From: a virus
DNA length: 25,925 bases
Virus record (IMG/VR): IMGVR_UViG_3300006332_000025
Location: 1 to 25,925 of that record
Reading direction: 5' to 3' (one strand)
Every line of letters starts with the position of its first letter. The first letter of the stretch is position 1. Position numbers and translations under genes: made by a program. The notes under the pieces are model-generated. The model made no database searches, was not told where the DNA came from, and saw nothing but the letters and a program-made list of their open reading frames with translations. This document shows positions 22,758-25,925 of this stretch, piece after piece.

Positions 22758-23090
22758 CTATGCTCCTACGGTTTGACCGTTGAAAAATTGTGAAGTGATA
22801 CCTGAAAGGCGATTAGATACGAACCAAGTCCAATTCTTTTGAAAGACTCCACAACCGTATGCAAACTCATCACATAAAGCATTTAGTCTAGACTTAGTTG
22901 TATTTGACTGCCAACCGCCATCAAAAAGTTGTAACTCTCTCTCAACGTGAAAATAGGTAGCAATGTGATTTCCATGTAGGAACACTTTAGAATGTAGACC
23001 ATTATCAGCAGTAAAAACAGTAGTGTTAGAACCCGCCCAATTTGACTGAGTTCTGATTGCTCTGTTCATCTGAGTTTCAATTTTACGCAT
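22758..23090 (-). CDS. Conserved-looking hypothetical protein, 110 residues
   Basis: The sequence opens MRKIETQMNRAIRTQSNWAG and contains the distinctive stretch FDGGWQSNTTKSRLNALCDE, a pattern I recall from small proteins of marine cyanophages, though I cannot verify that here. Strands around KVFLHGNHIATYFHV and a helix after the Ser-Arg-Leu motif suggest a compact alpha/beta fold. The end (FQKNWTWFVSNR) is Trp-rich. It is first in an operon with the membrane and 87-residue genes and follows a module promoter at 23134. The leader ends with CTTCTCACTATG, shared with two other genes here, and has no Shine-Dalgarno site. Confidence 0.82.
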   Translation of the reverse strand: MRKIETQMNRAIRTQSNWAGSNTTVFTADNGLHSKVFLHGNHIATYFHVERELQLFDGGWQSNTTKSRLNALCDEFAYGCGVFQKNWTWFVSNRLSGITSQFFNGQTVGA

Positions 23091-23133: not shown

Positions 23134-23179
23134 ATTATAAGGCATACGAGGCACTTGTATATGCTTAGAGTGCCACTTA
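23134..23179 (-). promoter_or_regulatory. Module promoter (diverged upstream element)
   Basis: TATAAT lies at 23134-23139, followed by AGGTACAT. The upstream element at 23172-23179 reads TAAGTGGC on the minus strand and lies 32 bases from the -10, as in the other module promoters. It is the most diverged member and lacks the CCC tract near -35. It drives the 110-residue gene. Confidence 0.6.
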
Positions 23180-23191
23180 ATCGAGTGTCAC
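23170..23191 (-). terminator. Hairpin with stop codon in loop
   Basis: GTGACACT and AGTGGCAC pair with one mismatch around the loop CGATTA. The TAA stop of the 64-residue gene spans the end of the loop and the first base of the 3' arm. There is no U tract, so it may be an mRNA end stabiliser or weak terminator. It also overlaps the upstream element of the next promoter. Confidence 0.5.
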
Positions 23192-23371
23192 AGCATTTTG
23201 ATACGCAAGATAAAACTGATCGTATAATGCGTCATTAGATGCGAATGTAGGAAACCCGATTTGATCGGCAACCCAGTCGTATGCAAAATCTAGGTCAGCA
23301 CCAAAATCCTCTACAAAGGAAGGTAACTGGTTTAGAACTTCTTGAAATTCTGAATAAGTGAAAGATGACAT
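23177..23371 (-). CDS. Hypothetical acidic protein, 64 residues
   Basis: No family recognised. The sequence (MSSFTYSEFQEVLNQLPSFV, then EDFGADLDFAYDWVADQIGF) is strongly acidic, with about ten Asp/Glu and a single Lys or Arg at most, and rich in Phe and Tyr. It is probably a small helical protein. The leader has no clear ribosome site and no TATAAT box, so it is probably transcribed with the 59-residue gene 39 bases upstream. DNA-mimic proteins share such composition, but this is only a composition match. Confidence 0.72.
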   Translation of the reverse strand: MSSFTYSEFQEVLNQLPSFVEDFGADLDFAYDWVADQIGFPTFASNDALYDQFYLAYQNAVTLD

Positions 23372-23405
23372 AATTAAAAAATGAATAAAGGTTTGCTTTG
23401 GTGGG

Positions 23406-23425
23406 GATCTCTACTGGCAGAGATC
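23406..23425 (-). terminator. Hairpin overlapping stop codon
   Basis: GATCTCT and AGAGATC form a perfect seven-base stem with loop GCCAGT on the minus strand. The TAG stop of the 59-residue gene begins in the loop and enters the 3' arm. It is followed by CCCC rather than U residues. Transcription seems to continue into the 64-residue gene. Confidence 0.6.
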
Positions 23426-23590
23426 TTGAAACTTTTTGTATGCTAGGTTCTCAATCCAGTCAAGTGCATAAGGGTTGACTTTGATCCAGTCCTCCAAATC
23501 ATCACTTGATAAACCACTGATACGCATGTACTCTTCAAATGACTCGTCCATGCAAGTTTCGTAGAGTGCTTCATGATGTAGAACTGACAT
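23411..23590 (-). CDS. Hypothetical acidic protein, 59 residues
   Basis: The real frame starts at the ATG at 23590 and reads MSVLHHEALYETCMDESFEE, continuing through LSSDDLEDWIKVNPYALDWI to a TAG at 23411. A longer frame in another phase over the same bases (23443-23628) is a shadow. Support comes from an AAGGA ribosome site six to eight bases upstream, the module promoter at 23614 and the hairpin at the stop. It is acidic and helical with two Trp. No family recognised. Confidence 0.75.
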   Translation of the reverse strand: MSVLHHEALYETCMDESFEEYMRISGLSSDDLEDWIKVNPYALDWIENLAYKKFQDLCQ

Positions 23591-23613
23591 AATTTCCTTT
23601 CGTGTATATACCT

Positions 23614-23660
23614 ATTATACACACACAAGGGGGCATTTTGGGAGATTTATGTGACAGTTT
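23614..23660 (-). promoter_or_regulatory. Module promoter C
   Basis: TATAAT (23614-23619) is followed by AGGTATATAC. CCC lies at 23640-23642, and AAACTGTCAC at 23651-23660, with AAACTGTC 33 bases from the -10. There is no TTGACA-like -35. The upstream element is written inside the last codons of the 69-residue gene. It drives the 59- and 64-residue genes. Confidence 0.65.
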
Positions 23661-23856
23661 GTAGTTTGTCACTCTGTATAAGATCTCTGTGAATGTAGAG
23701 CAGTTTGTCTAGGTTTAATCCCTCTAGGTCAGTCCACTCTGACACATAATCCCAATGATCCAAATCTGGTGTACCATCTACGAATGTAGGGCAAGAGCAA
23801 AATTCTTGATCCTCATCTAACCAGAAGTGTCTTCCAAAATGTAGTGAAGCGAGCAT
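23647..23856 (-). CDS. Hypothetical acidic protein, 69 residues
   Basis: No family recognised. It begins MLASLHFGRHFWLDEDQEFC and contains a C-x-C pair (FCSCPTF), then acidic helices (DLEGLNLDKLLYIHRDLIQS). A clear ribosome site (GGAGG, eight bases upstream) fixes the start at 23856. It has its own module promoter at 23886. Its last codons (DKLQTVT) contain the next promoter's AAACTGTCAC element, within an imperfect GTGACA/TGTCAC inverted repeat. Confidence 0.75.
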   Translation of the reverse strand: MLASLHFGRHFWLDEDQEFCSCPTFVDGTPDLDHWDYVSEWTDLEGLNLDKLLYIHRDLIQSDKLQTVT

Positions 23857-23885
23857 TTAAAAAACCTCCATTTGTGTACTTACTT

Positions 23886-23931
23886 ATTATAGGGGCACAT
23901 GGTACACCCTAGGGAATTCGAGTGACAGTTT
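23886..23931 (-). promoter_or_regulatory. Module promoter B
   Basis: TATAAT (23886-23891) is followed by AAGTAAGTAC. CCC lies at 23912-23914, and AAACTGTCAC at 23922-23931, with AAACTGTC 32 bases from the -10. There is no -35 consensus. It drives the 69-residue gene. Confidence 0.68.
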
Positions 23932-23941
23932 ATATACTGTC
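23924..23941 (-). terminator. Hairpin directly after stop codon
   Basis: GACAGT-ATATAA-ACTGTC follows the TAG stop (23942-23944) without a gap. It is a six-base stem with an AT loop and no U tract. It is also the upstream element of module promoter B, so a symmetric protein-binding site is a competing reading. Confidence 0.5.
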
Positions 23942-24127
23942 CTACATTCCGTTCATAAAGTCGTGAAGTCCATCAAGATACTCATCATAAGTATCATAAC
24001 GAGACTTTGCCCAATCGGGCACTTCCTTAACCTCGGAAGTCTTAGAAGATCCCTGACGGATCTCTGAACAAGTGTATCCTTTTTGAAGGAGATTAGGATA
24101 GAACTCACGTATAACTGAATTATTCAT
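23942..24127 (-). CDS. Hypothetical protein, 61 residues
   Basis: No family recognised. I place the start at the ATG at 24127 (MNNSVIREFYPNLLQKGYTC). A GTG at 24184 in the same frame would add 19 residues but lies inside a strong terminator stem and upstream of a likely -10 box. The sequence has a helical start and a Tyr/Asp-rich end (SRYDTYDEYLDGLHDFMNGM). With a promoter at 24134-24162 the message would be nearly leaderless, which is unusual. A hairpin follows the stop directly. Confidence 0.68.
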   Translation of the reverse strand: MNNSVIREFYPNLLQKGYTCSEIRQGSSKTSEVKEVPDWAKSRYDTYDEYLDGLHDFMNGM

Positions 24128-24133
24128 ATGCGT

Positions 24134-24162
24134 AGCATAGCACAGATTAAGGCAAAAATCAA
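24134..24162 (-). promoter_or_regulatory. Possible promoter overlapping a terminator
   Basis: TTGATT (24157-24162), a 17-base spacer and TATGCT (24134-24139) give a fair sigma-70 promoter on the minus strand. The -35 box overlaps the U tract and last stem bases of the terminator at 24154-24204. Predicted start is at or next to the ATG of the 61-residue gene. Confidence 0.45.
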
Positions 24163-24204
24163 GCGACCTTGTACCACTTCTCACACTGGCACAAAATCGC
24201 TTGA
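24154..24204 (-). terminator. Rho-independent terminator with a long two-part stem
   Basis: On the minus strand TCAAGCGA pairs perfectly with TCGCTTGA. Inside it, after a two-base internal loop, TTGTGCCA pairs with TGGTACAA (one G-U pair) around a 10-base loop, and TTTTT follows. This is the best intrinsic terminator in the window. It ends the transcript of the 37-residue gene. Confidence 0.82.
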
Positions 24205-24222
24205 CTGCTGTTCTAATTCATT

Positions 24223-24336
24223 TTATAAATCAGATCCTCCTGTCTCTACTACTTCAACAATGTCATCAAGAACTGCTAGGATCTCGTTACCATTGTTGGC
24301 AGAGTCAAGCAGGAATTCAGCAAAGTTAGGTGACAT
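24223..24336 (-). CDS. Small acidic protein, 37 residues
   Basis: The frame reads MSPNFAEFLLDSANNGNEIL then AVLDDIVEVVETGGSDL, a short amphipathic helical protein with eight acidic residues and no Lys or Arg. It is followed by the strong terminator at 24154-24204, which supports it as a real transcribed unit. No Shine-Dalgarno site precedes the ATG. A weak TTGACT box lies about 60 bases upstream without a good -10, so its promoter is uncertain. I know of similar tiny proteins in marine phages but cannot name a family. Confidence 0.65.
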   Translation of the reverse strand: MSPNFAEFLLDSANNGNEILAVLDDIVEVVETGGSDL

Positions 24337-24433
24337 AATAATAAGAATGAATGAACAAAAACTGGACTTACATAGTAATCATATAAGAAGTCAATTCTTC
24401 AAAATGATTGAACCCTACTGCCAGTATTTAAAG

Positions 24434-24450
24434 TGCGGAACTATTCCGCA
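24434..24450 (-). terminator. Hairpin with stop codon as the whole loop
   Basis: TGCGGAA-TAG-TTCCGCA is a perfect seven-base stem whose three-base loop is exactly the TAG stop of the 85-residue gene. CTTTAAAT follows instead of a U tract, so termination would be weak. It probably protects the message end. Confidence 0.6.
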
Positions 24451-24698
24451 TCCTCTGTAAGATCAGGTAAAAATGTGAATACATAATTACCCTCTTCAGG
24501 GTCAACACCGTCAACACACCACTCCTCATAAATGCTTACAGCATCATCAGGTCTACCATCCTCAGCACAATTTGTCATGGCATGGTAGTAAGCATCACGC
24601 ATGGTCTCTATCTGGTGTTGATTATCGTCAACCACATCACTAAATGTGTCAATGTCTGGAGTGTGATTACAGAAAAGATCAAGAGTAGAATCGTGCAT
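24441..24698 (-). CDS. Hypothetical acidic protein, 85 residues
   Basis: No family recognised. It begins MHDSTLDLFCNHTPDIDTFS and is very acidic (about 20 Asp/Glu against three Arg and no Lys). A central helix (NQHQIETMRDAYYHAMTNCA) is followed by a Gly/Asp turn region and a short strand (NYVFTFLP). It is the last gene of a transcript beginning at module promoter A and follows the 49-residue gene by 14 bases. No ribosome site is evident. Its stop codon sits in a hairpin loop. Confidence 0.75.
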   Translation of the reverse strand: MHDSTLDLFCNHTPDIDTFSDVVDDNQHQIETMRDAYYHAMTNCAEDGRPDDAVSIYEEWCVDGVDPEEGNYVFTFLPDLTEDAE

Positions 24699-24712
24699 AG
24701 TAAAAAGAAAAG

Positions 24713-24862
24713 TTAGTGATCGCTAGGGAATGAAATAACATCAGTTGAACTGTCTTCAACTGCTACGATTTCACCAGTCATGTTATAATGAGTATCAGCA
24801 ATTTGACATGCCTCTTTATAACTTTTGGTGAACTTCTTTGGTTCGGTGAATACAATGAACAT
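24713..24862 (-). CDS. Hypothetical protein, 49 residues
   Basis: The frame runs from an ATG at 24862 to a TAA at 24713: MFIVFTEPKKFTKSYKEACQ then IADTHYNMTGEIVAVEDSST, ending DVISFPSDH. A textbook ribosome site (AAGGAGG, seven bases upstream) makes this one of the most secure small genes here. The pattern strand-helix-strand-strand suggests a tiny alpha/beta domain. No family recognised. It follows the 62-residue gene by 12 bases. Confidence 0.78.
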   Translation of the reverse strand: MFIVFTEPKKFTKSYKEACQIADTHYNMTGEIVAVEDSSTDVISFPSDH

Positions 24863-24874
24863 GTTAAATCCTCC

Positions 24875-25063
24875 TTAGTAGTTTGCAATGATGTCCCAGA
24901 TTTCGATGTAGTTTCTCAACCAATCTTTTTGATAATCTGTTAATTCAGTATCTGAAGCACCGAAGAGAATATCGTCAGCACTATGCAACTCTAGGTTATG
25001 CTTAGTGCAGAAGTCTTCCAATACATCTGATAGAGTGTCAAGTTGTGAAGTGATAACTGACAT
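24875..25063 (-). CDS. Hypothetical acidic protein, 62 residues
   Basis: No family recognised. It starts MSVITSQLDTLSDVLEDFCT and ends in two Trp-containing helices (YQKDWLRNYIEIWDIIANY). It is mostly helical and acidic. The start overlaps the preceding stop by one base (TAATG), and a GGAGG site lies nine bases upstream, so it is translated together with the 89-residue gene. Confidence 0.75.
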   Translation of the reverse strand: MSVITSQLDTLSDVLEDFCTKHNLELHSADDILFGASDTELTDYQKDWLRNYIEIWDIIANY

Positions 25064-25332
25064 TAGAATTGACCTCCAGTTTGGTTAATATCAAGGACAG
25101 TTGGGTTGTAGTTAGTGACATTATCAACCAAGTCATTCAATGTTTCCTCATCAAATGAAAGTCTGATCTCATCAATTAACTCATGCCTAGATTGAATTTG
25201 CTCAAAATCATCTGTTAGAGTCTGACGTACAAACTCTTCTAAAGAGTCATAGTCCATGCTATCAACACATAGATCAACATACTGGGAAATGAGTTCATCC
25301 CATTGTAGTGAGGTTAGATTTGGAACTGTCAT
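25063..25332 (-). CDS. Hypothetical acidic protein, 89 residues
   Basis: No family recognised. It begins MTVPNLTSLQWDELISQYVD and is an all-helix acidic protein (DYDSLEEFVRQTLTDDFEQI) with a Gly/Asn-rich end (NQTGGQF). It is first in a four-gene transcript from module promoter A. Its 35-base leader is nearly identical to that of the 72-residue gene at 25628 and ends CTTCTCACCATG without a Shine-Dalgarno site. Confidence 0.78.
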   Translation of the reverse strand: MTVPNLTSLQWDELISQYVDLCVDSMDYDSLEEFVRQTLTDDFEQIQSRHELIDEIRLSFDEETLNDLVDNVTNYNPTVLDINQTGGQF

Positions 25333-25333
25333 G

Positions 25334-25368
25334 GTGAGAAGGATTTGTTTGGTATGTACTTATTATAA
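25334..25368 (-). repeat. Leader repeat, copy A
   Basis: The 35 bases from the -10 box to just before the start codon match those at 25848-25882 at 34 of 35 positions. The shared block runs from TTATAAT through GTACATACCAAACAAATCC to CTTCTCAC. The genes that follow are not similar, so only the control region is duplicated. Confidence 0.85.
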
Positions 25369-25407
25369 GGGGTCAGAGATACGTTTGGGGAAACTGTGTG
25401 ACAGTTT
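25362..25407 (-). promoter_or_regulatory. Module promoter A
   Basis: TATAAT (25362-25367) is followed by AAGTACATAC. CCCC lies at 25387-25390, and AAACTGTCAC at 25398-25407, with AAACTGTC 32 bases from the -10. No TTGACA-like box is present at 16-18 bases. Confidence 0.7.
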
Positions 25408-25417
25408 CTAAACTGTC
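25400..25417 (-). terminator. Hairpin directly after stop codon
   Basis: GACAGTTT-AG-AAACTGTC follows the TGA stop (25418-25420) with no gap. The palindrome is nearly perfect, so it may be a terminator-like hairpin or a two-fold protein-binding site at module promoter A. No U tract follows. Confidence 0.6.
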
Positions 25418-25627
25418 TCATGTTAACCACTTTTCATCAGTTGTTTCTAGTAGTTTACCTACCTTGTATTCATATCCATCACAATACTCAACCTCTTCAT
25501 AATGTTGACAATGTTCAAAATCAGATGCAATTCTCTTTGCTTCTGTTTTATTCTCTGCACCAACTGTTACTGAATAGTAAACAATTTTCTTTGCTTCAAA
25601 TGTGTAACTGTTTAATAGTTCAGACAT
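25418..25627 (-). CDS. Hypothetical protein, 69 residues
   Basis: No named family. The sequence MSELLNSYTFEAKKIVYYSV then TVGAENKTEAKRIASDFEHC has the strand-helix-strand pattern of small alpha/beta proteins (a strand KKIVYYSVTV, a helix with EAKRIASDF, a strand EEVEYCDGYEYKV). It starts directly after the previous stop (TAA-ATG), with a GGGAGG site eight bases upstream. Confidence 0.77.
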   Translation of the reverse strand: MSELLNSYTFEAKKIVYYSVTVGAENKTEAKRIASDFEHCQHYEEVEYCDGYEYKVGKLLETTDEKWLT

Positions 25628-25846
25628 TTAAGCAACCTCCCTGATATATCCATTTTCAGATACCATGAAAGCATCTAGTCTAGTGATGTCTAGGTCAGTG
25701 TCATCAAAATCGATTTTAGCACATCCGTAAACACCCCACTCTGCTAACTCTTGACAGAATTCTGCCCAGTTAGCACATACACAGGCAACATTCTGAAAGT
25801 TTTCAACCTGTAGTATTCTTTGCATTATCTTTGAAGTTTTGTCCAT
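25628..25846 (-). CDS. Hypothetical acidic protein, 72 residues
   Basis: No family recognised. It begins MDKTSKIMQRILQVENFQNV, with an internal Met at residue 8 as a possible alternative start. The centre has two Cys close together and aromatic helices (ACVCANWAEFCQELAEWGVY), then an acidic stretch (KIDFDDTDLDITRLDAFMV). It is first in a two-gene transcript from the module promoter at 25876, with the duplicated leader and no Shine-Dalgarno site. Confidence 0.75.
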   Translation of the reverse strand: MDKTSKIMQRILQVENFQNVACVCANWAEFCQELAEWGVYGCAKIDFDDTDLDITRLDAFMVSENGYIREVA

Positions 25847-25847
25847 A

Positions 25848-25882
25848 GTGAGAAGGATTTGTTTGGTATGTACCTATTATAA
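25848..25882 (-). repeat. Leader repeat, copy B
   Basis: This is the second copy of the 35-base leader and -10 block described at 25334-25368; the single difference is G for A just after the -10 box. A partial third copy, sharing TATAATAGGTACAT and the final CTTCTCACTATG, precedes the 110-residue gene. Confidence 0.85.
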
Positions 25883-25921
25883 CCACTCAAATACCCCAAA
25901 TGGGGAATGAGTGGACACTTT
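25876..25921 (-). promoter_or_regulatory. Module promoter D
   Basis: TATAAT (25876-25881) is followed by AGGTACATAC. CCCC lies at 25902-25905, and AAAGTGTC at 25914-25921, 32 bases from the -10. It drives the 72- and 69-residue genes. Confidence 0.66.
25883..25914 (-). terminator. Long inverted repeat upstream of module promoter D
   Basis: CCACTCA/TGAGTGG encloses a second stem CCCC-ATTT-GGGG. It could end the transcript of a gene beyond the right edge, but only two T residues follow and it overlaps promoter D, so it may be regulatory. Confidence 0.5.
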
Positions 25922-25925
25922 AATG

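Follow-up and report, generated by a model that had tools for sequence, protein, structure and literature searches.

The 25.9-kb viral record IMGVR_UViG_3300006332_000025, the whole of which (positions 1 to 25,925) is referred to here as the window, is a piece of a T4-like marine cyanophage genome, and its closest named relative is P-SSM7, which infects Prochlorococcus (86% over 59% of the right end). Within a minus-strand run of small genes, adjoining the baseplate genes gp25 and gp6, it carries a series of promoters in which a TATAAT box is preceded at a fixed distance by an upstream element. An initial annotation, made from the sequence alone, had described five of these, and their positions (23134, 23614, 23886, 25362 and 25876), their spacings of 32 or 33 nt and the direct continuation of each TATAAT into ARGTA were all borne out, every one of the five lying on the minus strand (the plus strand reads ATTATA). 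The number five was too low, as there is a sixth, weaker candidate that is conserved in P-SSM7. The upstream element is in fact one half of an 18-bp inverted repeat, here called the box, which together with the -10 forms a module belonging to marine T4-like cyanophages. The features are listed below, the spacer being the number of nucleotides from the end of the element to the -10.

25914..25925, minus strand: promoter 1 box, proximal half AAGTGTC (25914-25920) and the bases between the halves; the distal half, GACAGTT, is past the window end
25883..25914, minus strand: promoter 1 inverted repeat CCACTCA..TGAGTGG, inner CCCC..GGGG, between box and -10; this is the CCC of the initial annotation
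25876..25881, minus strand: promoter 1 -10 TATAAT, then AGGTACATAC; spacer 32
25628..25846, minus strand: gene after promoter 1, 72 aa, phrog_9580, function unknown
25400..25417, minus strand: promoter 2 box GACAGTTTAGAAACTGTC, a perfect inverted repeat
25362..25367, minus strand: promoter 2 -10 TATAAT, then AAGTACATAC; spacer 32
25063..25332, minus strand: gene after promoter 2, 89 aa, DUF7326 / phrog_1352
24173..24190, minus strand: sixth candidate box GCCAGTGTGAGAAGTGGT, weaker, overlooked initially; identical sequence in P-SSM7
24134..24139, minus strand: sixth candidate -10 TATGCT, conserved in P-SSM7; spacer 33; next ATG at 24127, which would be nearly leaderless
23924..23941, minus strand: promoter 3 box GACAGTATATAAACTGTC
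23886..23891, minus strand: promoter 3 -10 TATAAT, then AAGTAAGTAC; spacer 32
23647..23856, minus strand: gene after promoter 3, 69 aa, phrog_13427
23653..23670, minus strand: promoter 4 box GACAAACTACAAACTGTC; the P-SSM7 orthologue is GACACCTTACTAAGTGGC
23614..23619, minus strand: promoter 4 -10 TATAAT, then AGGTATATAC; spacer 33
23411..23590, minus strand: gene after promoter 4, 59 aa, phrog_14136
23172..23189, minus strand: promoter 5 box GACACTCGATTAAGTGGC
23134..23139, minus strand: promoter 5 -10 TATAAT, then AGGTACATG; spacer 32
22758..23090, minus strand: gene after promoter 5, 110 aa, Kyano_Gp96 / phrog_554

What had been taken for the complete upstream element is present at the fixed distance claimed for it, but it is only the promoter-proximal half of the inverted repeat GMCASTT-N4-AASTGKC, the extended consensus of which is GMCASTT-N4-AASTGKC(AC)A. 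This proximal half takes the form AAACTGTC or AAAGTGTC; AAGTGGC is likewise a variant of the same half-site, and TAAGTGGC, originally set apart as a weaker element, is a regular variant (box GACACTCGATTAAGTGGC). Three of the window elements were returned by a repeat finder as GTGACAGTTT..AAACTGTC-like palindromes, and at the promoter at 25876 the far half-site can be read from the P-SSM7 orthologue, which has GACAGTTCATTAAAGTGTC with 5 bases between the halves and not 4. The centre of the dyad lies 41 bp before the -10, that is at about -53 if the start is placed 7 bases after TATAAT, the dyad then extending from about -62 to -45. It had also been stated that a TTGACA-like -35 is lacking, and at 16-18 bp there is none in the five promoters apart from a 4/6 match, TATACA, at 23134. 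The CCC proposed as a separate box near -35 fared less well: in two of the five promoters it forms one side, the left, of a CCC...GGG hairpin, and it is not conserved elsewhere in the class, so that it was rejected as a conserved substitute for the -35. Across 137 distinct boxes there was no covariation between the arms, the pair 5-14 pairing 46 times against 55 expected and its commonest combination being G-G, which is unable to pair. The half-sites vary independently, and the box is therefore a dyad DNA site, each half of which is separately recognised, as by a protein dimer, rather than an RNA element.

Evidence that box and -10 belong together comes from viral contigs that were retrieved by only one of the two, in which each predicts the other. 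When contigs were fetched by the -10 signature TATAATARGTACATAC alone, one inverted repeat predominated in the 108 distinct upstream regions, and the box was found at 31-33 nt (mode 32) in 73 of 102 distinct TATAATARGTACATAC training promoters. The converse sample was drawn by a search without a -10 requirement and comprised 119 distinct palindromes, the pool analysed also including loci from other searches; in these pooled loci TATAAT stood 31-33 nt from the palindrome in 41 of the 119, as compared with a total of 10 TATAAT over the other 97 distances, and relaxed -10 boxes averaged 25 per position at 31-33 nt and 1.9 elsewhere. A scan with a position matrix against shuffled sequence had been suggested at the outset, and a profile trained on other viruses (cut-off score of at least 18, a palindrome being able to count once per strand) gave 9 matches in the window as against 0.04 per dinucleotide shuffle, the corresponding figures being 21 and 0.35 for P-SSM7 and 12 and 0.25 for Syn9. 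TATAAT is the most frequent -10 across the class and is present in five of the five promoters first described.

The upstream element is conserved, above control, in all seven of the marine T4-like cyanophages P-SSM7, Syn9, S-PM2, P-HM2, P-SSM2, S-SSM7 and S-TIM5. At no more than one mismatch the box occurs 60 times in these phages versus 3 for the reversed control, and the same pattern search found none in T4, Ma-LMM01, P-SSP7 or the pelagiphage HTVC008M, and only the control level in KVP40. When sites were collapsed there were 11-22 in each of the seven phages and one in HTVC008M (background 0.6). Among the phages tested the box is thus restricted to marine T4-like cyanophages, and within them it is placed before genes: a start codon lies no more than 130 nt downstream of 106 of the 119 collapsed sites, only 33 of which fall inside long open reading frames although these cover about 84%. 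The sites are concentrated among small genes and keep away from structural ones, being densest in Syn9 in the small-gene region at 44-53 kb and missing from P-SSM7 between 46 and 128 kb, where the genes are mostly structural. Outside the small-gene cluster, sites precede cobS and the adjacent 'peptidase' gene in several phages. Four Syn9 sites (47207, 48561, 51003 and 52999) have TATTCT or CATACT followed by ATARGAGTSRAAG in place of TATAATARGTACATAC.

In the hosts the box is nearly absent. A perfect extended box occurs in only one of 151 picocyanobacterial genomes, that of Cyanobium sp. CH-040, where it lies inside a mobile island; in ten picocyanobacterial genomes 15 box matches were counted versus 38 for the control, and the combination of box and TATAAT was at control level. 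This near-absence suggests that the protein which binds the box is probably encoded by the phage. It could be argued instead that a dimeric regulator of the host binds the box and is recruited by the phage immediately on entry, the host's own sites being few or diverged, since early promoters have to work before phage proteins exist and the box is common to phages of both Prochlorococcus and Synechococcus. However, it is the counts in the host genomes themselves that make this unlikely, and the dyad differs from the NtcA site, which is GTA-N8-TAC.

The explanation that we favour, and consider reasonably probable, is that these are activator-dependent promoters of the sigma70 type serving small non-structural genes of the takeover kind, with a phage-specific dimeric activator at the dyad. 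A phage-specific protein would bind GMCASTT-N4-AASTGKC(AC)A as a dimer centred at about -53 and, once bound, would help the host RNA polymerase from one face of the helix at a good -10 (TATAATARGTAYATAC) unaccompanied by a dependable -35; the next gene begins about 30 nt past the -10. A dyad so placed, from about -62 to -45, with a -10 that is good and a -35 that is poor, is typical of activator sites. The initial annotation had proposed an activator or a modified polymerase touching the same DNA face, and an activator on one face does appear to be the likeliest cause of the fixed distance. That the protein would activate rather than repress, that the phage would encode it and that the promoters would act early are inferences. 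A number of observations nevertheless weigh against it. The -35 is not wholly absent across the promoter class, the best -35-like match averaging about 3.5 versus 2.9 of 6 in several phages, which is a weak excess. An activator that acts first would need to arrive via the virion or the host. Among the proteins common to six of the box phages and not found in HTVC008M (Sm-like, DUF3110, MazG and unknowns) there is no convincing DNA-binding regulator, and phrog_385, annotated as 'transcriptional regulator', was rejected as the binder on the grounds that it also occurs in HTVC008M, which is without the box. The P-SSM7 copy of phrog_385 lacks cysteines and matches nothing in Pfam.

A different role for a protein at the same site would be that of a phage repressor, for which the box would be the operator, silencing the early genes later in infection at promoters that are otherwise host-like. 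Repressors do typically act at dyad operators, and late silencing of the early promoters might be needed by a lytic phage, but the site, at about -62 to -45, overlaps neither the -10 nor the start, repressor sites are seldom fixed at one distance upstream of the polymerase and the -35 elements are weak or absent, so that we regard this as distinctly improbable. Least credible of all is that the repeat works in RNA, as a hairpin that serves to terminate or process the upstream transcript, for whilst its 7-bp arms and 4-base gap resemble a tetraloop hairpin and often overlap the upstream stop codon, this is ruled out for practical purposes by the lack of covariation and the unpaired G-G at 5-14, the distance is fixed to the -10 and not to the stop, and a search against Rfam gave no match.

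There may well be an RNA terminator or processing element at these loci, but it would be a hairpin separate from the box. The interval between box and -10 folds strongly (mean z -2.14, with 47% below -2), in contrast to the upstream sequence (-0.30) and the leader (0.05), and the upstream gene's stop codon is usually at or inside the box, the gene ending a median of 2 nt into it. As the interval folds and its flanks do not, and as the upstream stop lies at or inside the box, the hairpin is probably the 3' end of the upstream transcript; it is accompanied by a T run in 14 of 78 cases. On the activator hypothesis the module would act as punctuation, the upstream gene stopping in the box and the hairpin probably ending or protecting the upstream transcript.

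Several known systems invite comparison. Doron et al. in 2016 are said to have reported, in Syn9 and P-TIM40, a novel regulatory element for early genes that is conserved among T4-like cyanophages, together with host-like middle promoters, a scheme reportedly unlike that of T4. The early element so described and the box share a phage group and a position upstream of genes, and the box is present in Syn9. The window sites probably belong to that class, and the suggestion that the class was undescribed is probably wrong, even though there is strong support for a separate class of phage promoter, marked by an upstream element at a fixed place and by the lack of both a -35 and a MotA box. As far as we can tell, the possibly new elements are the dyad geometry, the overlap with the stop codon, the absence from hosts, and the second box class and island described below.

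The middle promoters of T4 likewise combine a good -10 with no -35, an upstream element substituting for it, but the MotA box is centred at -30 and not at about -53. The P2 Ogr and P4 Delta late promoters would offer a comparable mechanism, having a dyad centred near -55, about five turns upstream, no good -35 and a small phage activator; they differ in half-sites and spacing and in serving the late genes of temperate phages. Ogr is a zinc-finger protein and its site is TGT-N12-ACA (PMC3931495). The box, with the consensus GMCASTT-N4-AASTGKC, does not contain that dyad. T4-like cyanophages are considered to lack MotA and/or AsiA (PMC5780444), and neither MotA (PF09114) nor AsiA (PF09010) was found in the seven cyanophages, T4 being positive for both. 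Ma-LMM01, a freshwater Microcystis phage, has SigA-like -35/-10 promoters for early and middle genes and similar ones for late genes (PMC5780444); it is like the box phages in being a cyanophage with host-type promoters and unlike them in having no box at up to one mismatch.

Some further features of the window deserve mention. A plus-strand TATAAT at 23223-23228, 33 nt from the opposite side of the promoter-5 box and present also in P-SSM7, is possibly a divergent antisense promoter sharing that box. The 39-nt leaders of two promoters are 95% identical (ACATACCAAACAAATCCTTCTCACYATG; 25330-25368 and 25844-25882) and have no clear Shine-Dalgarno sequence; similar leaders occur in other cyanophages. 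At 25418-25629, where the surroundings are otherwise like P-SSM7, a 69-aa gene shares 93-96% identity with its copies in P-SSM2, P-SSM5 and single-cell marine viruses, which would suggest that one small gene was exchanged recently.

A second inverted-repeat box, TGTAAACAATTGTTTCAG, precedes a hairpin and TATAAT in marine viral contigs, the end of the 13-mer and TATAAT being separated by 28 or 38-39 nt, distances that differ by one helical turn; 14 contigs carry both box classes, and a one-mismatch copy was found in 1 of 61 host genomes. HTVC008M was considered as a carrier of TGTAAACAATTGTTTCAG and rejected, the level being that of the control; its promoters look different. The Cyanobium sp. 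CH-040 island is a 16-kb low-GC region at a tRNA-Ser gene (contig 1, about 113.6-130 kb) encoding an integrase, AlpA, a type ISP restriction-modification system and a possible Sak-like annealase. It holds two perfect cyanophage boxes, the only ones in the 151 genomes, one of them about 195 nt before the integrase, and a related element in another genome (G115) has one strong box. Its role may be that of a phage-sensing satellite or of a defence island. More speculatively, and in our estimation unlikely as a whole, marine T4-like cyanophages may possess a novel family of dimeric activators that are encoded by the phage, are possibly brought in by the virion and recognise two or more box codes, among them GMCASTT-N4-AASTGKC and also TGTAAACAATTGTTTCAG, for which there are two distances that differ by a helical turn; some host mobile islands would sense infection by means of the phage box.

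The T4-like cyanophages, which count among the most abundant viruses of the sea, do without T4's MotA/AsiA switch. An 18-bp dyad at a fixed distance and absent from the hosts offers a bait for the missing activator, a means by which the early genes of uncultured viruses can be annotated and a probe with which to look for islands possibly able to sense infection.

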